Shown here: in pieces, positions 478 to 25,278 of the stretch | Layout of the letters: each line of letters starts with the position of its first letter | Numbering within the stretch: the first letter of the stretch is position 1 | Origin: Paracidovorax wautersii | Lineage (GTDB): Bacteria > Pseudomonadota > Gammaproteobacteria > Burkholderiales > Burkholderiaceae_C | Direction: 5' to 3' | Assembly (NCBI RefSeq): GCF_031453675.1 | Contig: NZ_JAVIZX010000001.1 | Span: forward strand, 3,618,001-3,682,000 | DNA: 64,000 nt | Translations under genes and position numbers: made by a program | The notes under the pieces: model-generated | What the model was told of the DNA's origin: nothing | Database searches by the model: none | Seen by the model: the letters and a program-made list of their open reading frames with translations, nothing else

Positions 478-2640
478 ATGAGCCGCAGCACACCCGATCC
501 GCTCTTCCAGCAGGCCAACCTGGCCGCCTGGACCCAGGCCGCCGCCAAGTCCGCTCCCGGCGGTGATGTGAATGCGCTCAACTGGGTCACCCCGGACGGC
601 ATCACGGTGAAGCCGCTCTACACCGCAGAGGACACGGCCGGCCTGCCTTATGCGAACACGCTGCCCGGCTTCGAGCCCTACCTGCGCGGCCCGCAAGCCA
701 CCATGTACGCGGTGCGGCCCTGGACGATTCGCCAGTACGCGGGCTTCTCCACCGCCGAGGAATCCAACGCCTTCTACCGCAAGGCGCTCGCCGCGGGCGG
801 GCAGGGGGTGAGCGTGGCGTTCGACCTGGCCACCCACCGCGGCTACGACTCCGACCACCCCCGCGTGACCGGCGACGTGGGCAAGGCCGGCGTGGCCATC
901 GATTCGGTCGAGGACATGAAGATCCTCTTCGACCAGATTCCGCTGGACAAGGTGAGCGTGTCCATGACCATGAACGGCGCCGTGCTGCCAGTGCTGGCCG
1001 GCTACGTGGTGGCGGCGGAAGAGCAGGGCGTGCGCCAGGACCAGTTGAGCGGGACCATCCAGAACGACATCCTCAAGGAGTTCATGGTCCGCAACACCTA
1101 CATCTACCCGCCCAAGCCCTCGATGCGGATCATCGGCGACATCATTGGCTACACGGCCAAGCACATGCCGAAGTTCAATTCCATATCGATCAGCGGCTAC
1201 CACATGCAGGAAGCCGGTGCCAACCAGGCGCTGGAGCTGGCCTTCACGCTGGCCGACGGCAAGGAGTACGTGAAGACCGCCATCGCCTCGGGCCTGGACG
1301 TGGATGCCTTTGCCGGGCGCCTGTCGTTCTTCTGGGCCGTGGGCATGAACTTCTACCTGGAGATCGCCAAGATGCGTGCCGCGCGCCTGCTGTGGTGCCG
1401 CATCATGAAGGAGACGGGCGCCAAGAACCCCAAGAGCCTGATGCTGCGCACCCACAGCCAGACCAGCGGCTGGAGCCTGACCGAGCAGGACCCGTACAAC
1501 AACGTGGTGCGCACCACCATCGAGGCCATGGCGGCGGTCTTCGGCGGCACTCAGAGCCTGCACACCAACGCGCTGGACGAAGCCATCGCCCTGCCCACCG
1601 AGTTCAGCGCCCGCATCGCGCGCAACACGCAGCTCATCATCCAGGAAGAGACGCACATCACCAACGTGGTCGACCCCTGGGCCGGCAGCTACATGATGGA
1701 GTCGCTGACCCAGGAGATGGCAGACGCCGCCTGGAAGATCATCGAGGAGGTCGAAGCCATGGGCGGGATGACCGCCGCCGTGGACTCGGGCTGGGCCAAG
1801 CTCAAGATCGAAGCCGCTGCCGCCGAGAAGCAGGCGCGCATCGACTCTGGCAAGGACGTGATCGTCGGCGTCAACAAATACAAGCTGGCCAAGGAAGACC
1901 CGGTCGACATCCTGCAGATCGACAACGTGAAGGTGCGCGACAGCCAGATCGCGCGCTTGAAGGATATCAAGGCAAAACGCGATGCAGCCCAGGTGCAGCA
2001 AGCGCTGGATGCTCTCACTTCTGCAGCAGAAAGCGGCGAGGGCAACCTGCTGGACCTGGCCATCAAGGCGGTGCGCCTGCGCGCCACGGTGGGCGAGGTG
2101 AGCGACGCGCTCGAAAAAGTCTATGGGCGCCACCGCGCCGACACGCAAAAGGTGACCGGTGTGTACGCTGCTGCCTACGATTCGGCCGAAGGCTGGGACA
2201 AGCTCAAGACCGAGATCGACGCCTTCGCCGAAACCGAAGGCCGCCGCCCCCGCGTGATGATCGCCAAGCTGGGCCAGGACGGCCACGACCGCGGCGCCAA
2301 GGTGGTCGCCACGGCGTTTGCCGATCTGGGCTTCGACGTGGACATGGGCCCGCTCTTCCAGACGCCCGAGGAATGCGCCCGCCAGGCCATCGAGAACGAC
2401 GTGCACGCCGTGGGCGTGAGCACGCTGGCCGCGGGGCACAAGACGCTGGTGCCGGCCATCATCCAGTCGCTCAAGGACCAGGGCGCCCATGACATCATCG
2501 TCTTCGTGGGCGGTGTGATTCCCGCGCAGGACTACGACTTTCTGTATGAAGCGGGCGTCAAGGGCATCTACGGCCCCGGCACCCCGATTCCTGCCAGCGC
2601 CAAGGACGTGCTGGAGCAGATCCGCAAGGCCGCCGCGTGA
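478..2640 (+). CDS. mcm: Methylmalonyl-CoA mutase
   Basis: Adenosylcobalamin-dependent mutase interconverting (R)-methylmalonyl-CoA and succinyl-CoA, the last step of propionyl-CoA assimilation. The single 720-residue chain has the catalytic TIM barrel (about 1-500, with the [14 protein letters not shown] segment) and a C-terminal B12-binding Rossmann domain. That domain carries the DxHxxG motif at D601-H603-G606, where the histidine is the lower cobalt ligand. The length is normal for a one-chain enzyme. It overlaps meaB by 4 nt (GTGA). Residues about 498-519, in the linker between barrel and B12 domain, are encoded by a degenerate copy of the palindromic repeat found elsewhere in the window. 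Confidence 0.96.
1969..2037 (-). repeat. Degenerate copy of palindromic repeat inside mcm (in frame)
   Basis: The first 37 nt align without gaps to the copy in the helicase gene at 22526, with 29 of 37 identical (hand count). Shared blocks are CAAAACG, TGCAGC and CAAGCGC. It lies in the same orientation and codon frame as that copy and encodes an Ala/Lys/Gln-rich stretch between the barrel and cobalamin domains. The second half is poorly conserved, so this is the least certain of the six copies. Confidence 0.5.
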
Positions 2641-22296: not shown

Positions 22297-25278
22297 ATGC
22301 AAGCCAGGGATGCCGATAGCCCACGCCGCCGCCCGCGCCGGGGCGCCGTACCGCAGGCCGTGGCCGCGTGGCTGGCCGGGCGCGGCTGGAAGCCGTTCGC
22401 CTTCCAGCGCGAGGTGTGGGAGGCCATGGGCCGCGGCGCCTCCGGCCTGTTGCATGCCACCACGGGCGCGGGCAAGACCTACGCCGTCTGGCTGGGCGCG
22501 CTGCAGGCGCTGGTGCCGGAATCCAAGCCAAAACGGGCTGCAGCGCCTGTGGATCAAGCGCAAGCAGCTACCAATAAGAGAGCAAAAAAGCCTGCGGCTG
22601 CACCGCTGACGGTGCTATGGATCACGCCCATGCGGGCGCTGGCGGCCGACACGCTCAAGGCGCTGGAGACGCCGCTCCTCGCGCTGGCGCCGCACGTGCC
22701 CGCGCTGGCCGGCTGGACGGTGGGCGCGCGCACCGGCGACACCAGCAGCACCGAGCGCAGCGCGCAGTCGCGCCGCCTGCCCACGGTGCTGGTCACCACG
22801 CCGGAGAGCCTGTCCCTGCTGCTGGCCCGGGCCGATGCGCAGGAACTGCTGGGCAGCGTGCGCCTGGTGGTGGCCGACGAATGGCATGAGCTGCTGGGCA
22901 ACAAGCGCGGCGTGCAGCTGCAGCTGGCGCTGGCGCGGCTGCAGGGCTGGAACCCGCCCCTGTGCGTGTGGGGCATGTCGGCCACGCTGGGCAACCTGCA
23001 GGAGGCGCAGCAGACGCTGCTGGGCCTGGACGATGCCGGCCAGCCACGGCCCGGCGTGCTCGTGCAGGGCCAGGTCGACAAGCGCCTGGTCGTGGACACT
23101 TTGCTGCCCGACCGGCCCGAGCGCTTTTCCTGGGCCGGCCATCTGGGCCTGGCCATGCTGCCGGCGGTGGTGCGCGAGCTCGAATCCACGGCCGGCTCCA
23201 CGCTGGTCTTCGTCAACGTGCGCTCGCAGGCCGAGCTTTGGTACAAGGCGCTGCTCGACGCCCGGCCCGACTGGGCGGGGGAGTTGGCCATCCACCACGG
23301 ATCGCTGGACCGCAGCGTGCGCGAATGGGTCGAGGCGGGCCTGAAGGCCGGCACGCTGCGCGCGGTGGTCTGCACCAGCAGCCTGGACCTGGGCGTGGAC
23401 TTTCTGCCGGTGGAGCGCGTGCTGCAGATTGGCTCGGCCAAGGGCATCGCCCGGCTGCTGCAGCGCGCGGGGCGATCCGGCCATGCGCCCGGGCGCCCTT
23501 CGCGCATCACGCTGGTGCCCACGCACAGCCTGGAGCTGGTGGAGGCCGCCGCGGCCCGCACGGCCGTGCAGGCCGGCGAGGTGGAAAAGCGCGCCAGCCC
23601 GCGCCAGCCGGTGGACGTGCTGGTGCAGCACCTGGCCACCGTGGCGCTGGGCGGCGGCTTCGCGCCCGACGCGTTGTATGCCGAGGTGCGCCGCACGGTG
23701 GCCTATGCGGGGTTGCCGCCCGCCGTGTGGCAGTGGTGCCTGGACTTCGTGCACCGCGGCGGGCCGTCGCTGGCCGCCTACCCGGACTACCAGCGCGTGC
23801 GGCCCGACGAGGCCGGCATCTGGCGCATGCCCGACGTGCGCCTGGCGCGGCGCCACCGCGCCAACATCGGCACCATCGTGAGCGACGCAAGCATGACGGT
23901 GCAGATCCTGCATGGTGCGCGGCTGGGCAGCATGGAAGAGAGCTTTCTCTCGCGCCTGTCGCCCGGCGACGCCTTCGTCTTCGCCGGCCAGGTGCTGGAG
24001 ATGGTGCGTATCGAGCAGATGACGGCCTATGTGCGCCGCGCCGCGCGCGGGCGCCCCACGGTGCCGCGCTGGATGGGCGCGCGCATGCCGCTGTCCACCG
24101 TGCTGGCCGACTTCGTGGTGCAGCAGCTGGCCCAGGCGGCCGCTGGCGACTACGACTCGCCCGAGCTGCGCAGCGTGCGCCCGCTGCTGGAGGTGCAGCA
24201 GCGCTGGTCGGCCCTGCCCACGCCATCCACGCTGCTGGCCGAGACACTGCGCACGCGCGAGGGCTGGCACCTGTTCTTGTACCCCTTCGCCGGCCGGCAT
24301 GCCCACACCGGACTGGCCAGCCTGATGGCCTGGCGCGCTGCGCAGGGCGAGACGGGCACCTTTTCCATCGCGGTGAACGACTACGGCCTGGAGTTGCTCA
24401 GCGCCACCGAGCGCGACTGGGCGGCCCTGTTGCCTGAGCTGCTGCGGGCCGACCCGGCCCCGCCCGCCGCCGCGGCGGTAGAAGGCCGTGTCGCCCCGCA
24501 CGAAGCGGAAGGCATCCGCAACACCGCCAATGCCCGCGGCCCCAGCGGCGAGGTCGGAGACGCCGGGCAGGGCGGCGGCGCGGACGCGGCCCGCCATGCG
24601 CTGCTGCACGAGGTGCTCGCCAGCCTCAACGCGACGGAGATGGCGCGCCGGCGCTTCCGCGAAATCGCCCGCGTGTCGGGCCTCATCTTCCAGAGCCATC
24701 CGGGCGAGCGGCGCAGCGCCCGCCAGCTGCAGGCGTCCTCGCAATTGTTCTTCGAGGTGTTCCGCAAGTACGACCAGGCCAACCTGCTGCTGCGCCAGGC
24801 CGACGAAGAGGTGCTGAGCCAGGAGCTGGACGTGGCCCAGTTGCTGGCCGCCCTGCGGCGCATGCAGTCCCAGCGCACGGTGGTGAGCGCGCTGCAGCGC
24901 CCCAGCCCGTTCGCCTTTCCGCTGATGGTGGAGCGCTTCCGCGAGAAGCTGACCAACGAGCACCTGGCAGACCGCATCGCCCGCATGCTCGCCCAGCTGG
25001 ACGCGGCGGCCGACGCCGGCAGCGCGGCCCCCCAGCCGCGCGTGCAGGACGTGGTGCCGCCCGACCCGCCGCTGCGGCCCCGCGCCAAGCGGGCTTCTGC
25101 CGCGGCTGCAGCGCCCGCTGCCGCGGACGGCGACAATCGCCCGCTGGACACCGCCACGGCGGCCGTGCGGCGCACGCTGGACTTCTCGCTCTCCCACCCG
25201 GACGGGCCGGAAGCCGGCGGGGCCAATGCCCGCCCGCGCCGTGTCCGCCGGCCGTCGCGGCCGCTGCCGCCGCTGTGA
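22297..25278 (+). CDS. Ligase-associated DEXH-box DNA helicase (Lhr family)
   Basis: A 993-residue SF2 helicase. Walker A TGAGKT has K60 and T61, DEWH is at D194-H197, and SAT is in GMSATLGNL. Later motifs are [21 protein letters not shown], and the Lhr-type winged-helix and beta-sheet domains. It normally works with the exonuclease, ligase and PdeM as a repair set. The ATG at 22297 is chosen; upstream codons lack family character. Residues about 77-98, between motifs I and Ia, are encoded by a palindromic repeat copy. The C-terminal 60 residues are basic and low-complexity. Confidence 0.92.
22526..22590 (-). repeat. Palindromic repeat copy inside the helicase gene (in frame)
   Basis: The reverse complement reads GGTAGCTGCTTGCGCTTGAT, then CCACAGGCGCTGCAGCCCGTTTTGG, a close match to the intergenic copies at 11512, 17496 and 61537. 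It adds about 22 residues ([20 protein letters not shown] and on) without a stop codon, between two helicase motifs, in the same orientation and frame as the mcm and meaB copies. Confidence 0.85.

Follow-up and report, generated by a model that had tools for sequence, protein, structure and literature searches.

How does a palindromic repeat come to be read in frame within conserved genes of a free-living bacterium? The question is raised by a stretch of 64,000 nt from Paracidovorax wautersii (contig NZ_JAVIZX010000001.1, positions 3,618,001 to 3,682,000; hereafter the window), for which an earlier note, made from the letters alone, described a palindrome inserted in the genes of methylmalonyl-CoA mutase (mcm), MeaB and an Lhr-type helicase, always in the same orientation and frame. 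We find that the palindromic repeat family is real and dispersed in hundreds of copies. Judged from alignments with orthologues, insertion and the overlay of native codons both occur in this family: meaB and, in the best reading, Lhr gain protein at the repeat, while mcm keeps its length, aroE (shikimate dehydrogenase) keeps it fully or almost so, and both show a sharp codon border. We consider it somewhat probable that this is a non-autonomous family similar to the repetitive extragenic palindromic (REP) elements, spread by a REP-associated tyrosine transposase (RAYT), which partly inserts into genes and partly replaces native codons.

The repeat has a core of 57 nt, and by information content about 66 nt are conserved (model positions of about -6 to +60), with a mean GC content of 0.49 among the aligned copies. 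Across the genome, a pattern taken from the meaB copy gave 26 exact matches and its reversed control 0, and a relaxed pattern was matched 253 times on one strand and 227 times on the other vs. 7 and 7 for the control, in which near-symmetric copies are possibly counted twice. Two models of the repeat were used, and most counts below refer to a sample of 1.264 Mb, consisting of the window and 60 evenly spaced 20-kb stretches of the single-contig genome (4,571,377 bases). The covariance model R1 (57 positions, trained on 19 copies, with the three genic sites in Lhr, meaB, and mcm excluded; not to be confused with a reading frame also called R1) found at least 150 matches in the whole genome and 130 of at least 25 bits in the sample. 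The position weight matrix (PWM), trained on 57 intergenic copies from the same sample in which copies were later counted, found 152 copies of at least 30 bits, with 0 in the reversed sequence; extrapolated to the genome, this amounts to about 550 copies. An Rfam scan of the window left the repeat unmatched, and the family is absent from the 20 listed of at least 60 families reported by a general repeat finder.

The mcm site departs most clearly from what was previously suggested. Among the three genic copies of the earlier note, those in Lhr and meaB were matched strongly (Table 1) and that in mcm only weakly, with 20.8 bits in model R1 (E of 0.03 in the window and 0.6 in 1.26 Mb) and 25.9 PWM bits, and its arms are mismatched. 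The note took this copy for a linker added between the mutase barrel and the B12 domain, and named the same peptide in orthologues lacking the repeat as the observation that would speak against it. This is what we found: in repeat-free orthologues the peptide is the same and of equal length, none of the 78 orthologue rows has a gap at residues 494-526, and human MUT also aligns ungapped through the site. The match is hardly due to chance, because the real codons score 7.7 standard deviations (SD) above synonymous recoding of the same peptide (0 of 20,000 draws reached them; in this control the peptide is fixed and codons are drawn from genome usage) and relatives reach 39.5 PWM bits. Eight orthologues lie 7.1-8.7 SD above their own recodings, and across the 78 orthologues the site ranges from 39.5 to -69.7 PWM bits at constant length, with a wide spread even within Acidovorax. 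When 13 repeat-like and 7 plain loci, hand-chosen from 31 and 48 respectively, were compared, third-position identity between the two groups was 0.51 over residues 499-517 (19 codons) vs. 0.67-0.84 in 12 other segments, and the GC content at third codon positions (GC3) of the repeat-like group was 0.42 there vs. 0.87 in the segments on either side.

A similar border is present in AroE. Of 30 aligned AroE sequences, 23, our own included, are ungapped over residues 160-205, and the other seven differ by a few residues; our AroE is about five residues longer than a structure entry named shikimate 5-dehydrogenase, which we take to be from Vibrio. For the codon comparison the 30 best loci were taken, a match being present in 115 of 120 genomes; between the 12 repeat-like and 17 plain loci among them (one intermediate locus excluded), third-position identity drops to 0.42 over residues 176-194, compared with 0.57-0.77 in other segments, and GC3 is 0.47 there vs. 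0.82-0.94 elsewhere. The score of the AroE site rises with the copy number of the genome (Spearman 0.65, n = 30, kinship not removed). RsmB also aligns ungapped with E. coli RsmB over its copy and is probably another length-neutral overlay. Over the whole set of 1103 genes, 22 matches of at least 30 bits lie in coding sequences, compared with 0.6 per synonymous shuffle (five shuffles). Tested singly, 22 of our own sites (21 of the 22 internal copies plus mcm, leaving out the copy on stretch L217, whose open reading frame (ORF) is cut by the stretch edge) are 4.2-10.9 SD above synonymous recoding, and none was reached in 20,000 draws; since these sites were chosen for their high scores, the shuffle of the whole gene set is the fair control.

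In other genes, among them Lhr and, outside the window, PgeF, alignments with homologues suggest that the repeat copy is best read as additional protein. For the Lhr-type helicase, the segment that the earlier note placed between motifs I and Ia is still best taken as extra protein, and the linker is much shorter in several repeat-poor relatives. This linker copy is also found in four other genomes (G072, G010, G015, and G088; 34-53 bits), and among 12 Lhr linkers recovered from the same genus, about seven (L349, L350, L355-L358, and L360) resemble by eye a diverged element peptide. In PgeF, residues 155-184 are missing from E. coli YfiH structures, and the loops at this site are variable in repeat-poor relatives too. 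LigA has 15 additional N-terminal residues relative to E. coli LigA, provided that its predicted start is correct, and the copy in MutL falls in a highly variable linker. A second match in the Lhr gene of G015, assigned by its position (L153:3565-3621, 33.6 bits), lies between the aligned pieces around residue 278.

The meaB copy combines native sequence with an addition. Its left arm encodes the native RNLLAAQ, and its right arm supplies both a short tail and the stop. Alignment with the best MeaB structures goes no further than residue 330-331, short of this tail, and in Variovorax and Limnohabitans meaB ends soon after the native STAAR(N/Q)LL. The proposal that the repeat had replaced the C-terminus and stop therefore needs to be divided, as the native end is retained and the repeat supplies a tail and a stop. 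Of the protein sequence that the three copies were said to add, the meaB tail and probably the Lhr segment remain, and mcm gains none. A match at the meaB end was found in 33 of 80 named loci (E<=1), including Acidovorax, Comamonas, and Giesbergeria; 27 of these 33 and the window make up an alignment of 28 (A2), 17 of which were compared past the stop. The element is kept beyond the stop codon, with an ungapped identity among 17 sequences of 0.85 in columns 53-57 and 0.36 over the 30 bases that follow; upstream third positions have 0.73. In two loci, L080 and L085 (the latter from Giesbergeria), meaB retains GCAAGAAATCTGCTT, and by eye an alternative hairpin with downstream sequence is possible. 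Further, the mcm-meaB locus L063, labelled Pantoea sp. 18069, groups with Acidovorax sp. CCYZU-2555 and is probably from a mislabelled or mixed assembly.

Table 1. Copies of the repeat and element-like DNA in the window (positions in the window; spans of genes flanking intergenic copies are our own calls)
Feature	Host or flanking genes	Position	Strand	Score (bits)	Remarks
Element-like DNA in mcm	mcm, methylmalonyl-CoA mutase, 478-2640	1971..2027	+		frame S2, length-neutral
Element copy over meaB 3' end	meaB, 2637-3662	3611..3667	+	47.4	
Intergenic copy, convergent genes	10456-11508(+), 11600-12667(-)	11515..11571	-	38.5	
Intergenic copy, convergent genes		17499..17555	-	74	best among the matches listed for the genome
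Copy in linker between motifs I and Ia, Lhr-type helicase	ORF 22198-25278	22527..22583	+	53.2	frame S2
Intergenic copy, convergent genes	61119-61481(+), 61594-63045(-)	61537..61593	-	59.5	

Besides the genic sites, the window contains three intergenic copies that are absent from the earlier note (Table 1). The highest-scoring one recurs in the same gap of the same-genus genome G088 and not in that of G313.

The three genic sites of the window do share orientation and frame, as was first seen: in the orientation of our consensus, Lhr, meaB, and mcm all carry the repeat on the gene strand and in frame S2, in which a codon starts at element base 2 (the frame that reads QA). Taken as a rule for genes in general, this does not hold. 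The 22 intragenic copies in the sample (PWM of at least 30 bits) are split evenly, with 11 on the gene strand and 11 opposite, and their frames are S2 (9), R1 (6), R2 (4), S3 (2), R3 (1), and S1 (0), which is a preference (chi-square p 4e-5, with small expected counts). Frame S2 is the most frequent at all thresholds from 20 to 50 bits. Among the 98 intergenic copies, 49 are open in S1, 49 in S2, and 51 in R1, so that avoidance of stops would favour these three frames alike, and the encoded peptide therefore seems to matter. By eye, S2 gives linkers or tails of the QAQAAI type (Lhr, MutL, RsmB, LigA, PgeF, AceF, and a sugar ATP-binding cassette (ABC) ATPase), R1 gives hydrophobic, signal-peptide-like segments (among others, the signal-like N-termini of DsbD and an M16 peptidase), and R2 gives helix-like ELLA..QAL (AroE and an AddA-like helicase). 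As with the Rickettsia elements, the 22 copies are read in frame in unrelated protein genes, including those of Lhr, PgeF, LigA, AceF, and the ABC ATPase. Two opposite-strand copies, L222:6659-6715 and L202:14904-14960, appear by eye to encode much of the signal-peptide-like N-termini of the DsbD-like protein and the M16 peptidase respectively.

The pccA-type gene of relatives offers a further position with element-like DNA, at about residue 526 and in frame S1 (e.g., L065:7700-7756, and likewise in L068, L070, L073, L081, L083, L090, and L117). Four such sites are 3.8-4.3 SD above synonymous recoding, one of them being reached once in the draws. In the pccA-type gene of the window, model R1 has no match at the corresponding position.

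Most copies lie outside genes. Although 87.7% of the sample is coding (gene calls by our own script), only 22 of the 152 copies are inside genes, so that genes are depleted of them; 98 are intergenic and 32 overlap a gene end. For model R1 matches of at least 25 bits with no more than 14 bases of gene overlap and away from stretch edges, 26 are in convergent, 62 in co-directed, and 7 in divergent gaps, compared with 109, 408, and 142 available gaps (p 0.0004), i.e., convergent gaps are enriched and divergent gaps depleted, as in REP placement. Pattern matches were counted in 160 genomes of the same family: at least 50 (up to 615) in 19 genomes, 5-35 in 9, and 0-3 in 132, which makes the repeat patchy among the genera of one betaproteobacterial family (the named relatives being Comamonadaceae). 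In a class-wide sample of 143 genomes, in which strict filters applied and 39 candidates per genome were scored, model R1 matched only our own genome. Plasmids and phages were rejected as carriers, as a 76-base query matched 3 plasmid records out of 72,556 and none of the 50,697 phage records.

Eight cases of a longer form of about 98-102 nt, with two inverted element arms flanking a middle part of their own, were found in 1.26 Mb and resemble REPINs (L213:19606-19703, L214:15211-15312, L220:12691-12788, L197:13099-13200, L205:13822-13919, L199:4624-4721, L203:9987-10084, and L232:10089-10186). One copy, L127:532-588, has the usual ends around a different stem (CCAGCCT..AGGCTGG), which suggests that the stem can change wholesale while the ends stay.

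The link to a RAYT comes from the ends of RAYT genes. The genome encodes one RAYT, a single PF01797 gene matched by NCBIfam NF047646 at 81.6 bits (cut-off 80) and unmatched by PADLOC, and a repeat copy lies 75 nt from the start of its ORF as listed. The motif TGTCCC stands just past the gene end in 26 of 29 RAYT genes vs. 26 of 1142 control genes (160 nt around the RAYT match end and 140 nt around control gene ends; L191 was excluded for misfitting coordinates), usually preceded by a GCTATnnnTTTTGAT-like module that resembles the right end of the repeat. A module like GCTATCAATTTTGAT before TGTCCC occurs also in repeat-poor genomes, in which 10 of 16 RAYT ends score above the 95% control level. 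Fuller copies stand at some RAYT ends (e.g., 63.8 and 45.1 bits), and 9 of 30 RAYT loci, one with unusable coordinates, have a copy (PWM of at least 22 bits) within 300 nt. In genomes with at least 50 copies this applies to 7 of 13 RAYT loci, compared with 217 of 1001 genes of our own genome that have a copy within 150 nt (p 0.011, the sites not being independent). We read the repeat as REP-like and RAYT-linked because most of the RAYT genes examined carry a terminal signature with an inner part like its right end, and we take it, on this resemblance, to derive from the RAYT right end or to share it. The presence of a RAYT failed as a marker of repeat-rich genomes, as 152 of the 160 family genomes carry one. 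The terminal signature TTTTGAT(A/G)TGTCCC(C/T)AATT, found in most of the 29 family RAYT genes (3' flanks of L167-L196), is useful for annotating RAYT ends.

Based on these observations, the resident single-copy RAYT, or a relative of it, would spread the repeat within the chromosome, with vertical inheritance thereafter. Most copies are found between genes, usually near the 3' end of a gene, and copies in genes would survive only with an open frame and a tolerated peptide, hence their clustering in a few frames. Two outcomes are observed: additional protein (the Lhr linker, the PgeF loop, the N-terminal extension of LigA, and the meaB tail and stop), and element sequence on native codons with little or no length change (mcm, AroE, and probably RsmB). 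The latter might arise by replacement, for example when single-stranded element DNA anneals to a partly similar stretch, or by gene conversion between copies, and length-neutral copies would be maintained at the DNA level for as long as the lineage harbours an active family. The bolder form of this idea, that a RAYT-linked repeat overwrites genes, its single-stranded DNA replacing a partly similar native stretch codon for codon so that the mutase and the shikimate dehydrogenase gain a 57-nt palindrome and no residue, we put forward tentatively, as more doubtful than probable. Any function beyond that of a tolerated selfish element would likewise be conjecture, although the repeat may act as an RNA or DNA signal. 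A 3' mini-hairpin was rejected as a conserved RNA structure because it shows no covariation.

Several observations weigh against a RAYT-spread family that replaces codons. At mcm, the plain group is also more variable over the same residues (identity 0.58, its lowest segment; GC3 0.76). A weakly resolved tree of 79 rows requires a minimum of 14 changes of the repeat-like mcm state (shuffled mean 24.5), four of them forced by the starred branches, and the basal rows are repeat-like, so that one ancient event with many losses fits as well as repeated gains. AroE has exceptions to the trend with copy number, with scores of -86 in a genome of 71 copies, -81 in one of 35, and +26 in a single-copy genome. 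The Lhr linkers are as long in some repeat-poor relatives, and the linker is therefore variable in itself. RAYT homologues, usually one per genome, occur also where the repeat is absent; only 6 of the 16 RAYT ends in repeat-poor genomes exceed the 99% control level, and the genes are kin; and our own RAYT end is weak (11.8 bits, equalled or exceeded by 17 of 951 control flanks). Excision, target duplication, and recent jumps were not seen, and the hunt for empty sites within the genus gave one element-free gap (in G313), too diverged for borders or duplications, and no clean pair of empty and filled sites. GTAG 5' of the palindrome (bases 1-13) occurs in 0 of 67 intergenic copies; it is found at bases 14-17, inside the arm, in 5 and at 53-56, past the palindrome, in 13, and CGTC anywhere in 11.

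In addition, selection at the codon level for the motif would leave a trace similar to that of replacement. On this account the element is a DNA or RNA signal (a hairpin near gene ends, a binding site, or a structural motif), and some of the evolution of genic copies takes place on the spot through codon choice, much as DNA uptake sequences may evolve within genes. The conservation of the meaB element beyond the stop codon and the persistence of low GC3 within GC-rich genes agree with it, as does the covariation of the arms, whose score is reached by 1 shuffle in 500 for 40 intergenic copies and by 10 in 500 for 28 meaB sites. However, pairs changed on both sides are without excess (401 and 112 of the 500 shuffles, respectively, reach their number), and a structure slid by 3 columns scores 0.103 vs. 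0.058 for the intergenic copies and 0.101 vs. 0.103 for meaB, so that the arm covariation is weak; moreover, 57 specified positions are much for stepwise evolution, and the arms of our mcm site are mismatched. We consider this account rather unlikely. A purely insertional element of the Rickettsia type, for which all genic copies would be simple in-frame insertions, is less likely still and in our judgement improbable: it would explain the apparent extra residues of Lhr, PgeF, and LigA and the biased frames, but mcm and RsmB have no insertion relative to distant homologues, AroE has none or almost none relative to repeat-free relatives, and the border is one of codons and not of length. As a general rule it is refuted by the ungapped mcm.

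That GC-rich coding DNA occasionally looks palindrome-like could account for the weak mcm match in our genome if that match stood alone, but the reversed control and the synonymous shuffles refute such an artefact for the family and for most genic sites, and several of these genic sites are repeat-like in more than one genus; we regard it as extremely improbable. The family might also be the Beta-proteobacterial repeat element (BRE) of Hot et al. (2011), which is reported in Betaproteobacteria including Comamonadaceae, with some copies wholly within coding sequences (PMC3110155; here and below, statements refer to the accessible portions of the papers cited). In Bordetella, BRE is described as 75-91 bp long, with a mean of 69% GC, and as sometimes tandem. 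The present repeat differs in length, GC content, and arrangement, which sets it apart by description only, and the identity of the two is very unlikely. A search for literature on a Comamonadaceae repeat of this kind found the BRE and general REP papers and none on the present family, and the genus names sought in PMC3733652, PMC6006769, and PMC2817692 gave nothing relevant.

Copies of REP or Rickettsia elements within genes are usually taken as insertions, whereas at least mcm and AroE show a sharp-bordered overlay, mainly in lineages where the family is present. Should replacement be the mechanism, a repeat could colonise genes that do not tolerate a change in length, as selfish DNA that rewrites codon usage and protein segments; if motif selection is true, the function of the palindrome would be strong enough to override codon bias. 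Either reading makes the role of a REP-like repeat directly testable at sites in known enzymes.

DNA uptake sequences are about 10-12 nt long and linked to competence. Those of Neisseria and Pasteurellaceae share with the present repeat a motif within coding regions and an orientation bias (PMC2346458), but the present repeat is a RAYT-linked palindrome of 57-66 nt. Rickettsia palindromic elements and the protein-coding palindromes of Wolbachia add peptides in frame to unrelated conserved proteins (PMC2229807, PMC10969869), and the resemblance proposed in the earlier note is right in kind, for the family is dispersed and palindromic and is read in frame in unrelated conserved proteins. In contrast to the Rickettsia elements, with units of 105-146 bp (PMC2229807), it is shorter, occurs in free-living betaproteobacteria, in both orientations and in several frames, and has length-neutral sites. 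The REP/RAYT class is closer, with hundreds of dispersed, mostly intergenic palindromes, a single RAYT, and some copies in genes. REP elements lie between genes, near gene ends, and in convergent or co-directed gaps, and their intragenic copies include DNA ligase and helicase genes, some donating stop codons (PMC3733652). Unlike canonical REPs, which have a conserved tetranucleotide GTAG/CGTC 5' of the palindrome (PMC8266576), the present family lacks this tag and is conserved over a longer unit, the AT-rich right end of which is similar to the RAYT terminus; it also has length-neutral copies on native codons, of which no description was found in the accessible text of PMC3733652 and PMC8266576. 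Intragenic REPs and Rickettsia palindromic elements are thus already known, and the unusual part is the length-neutral overlay, for which replacement would be the mechanism. As far as we have seen, the repeat family, its likeness to the RAYT end, and this overlay are new.

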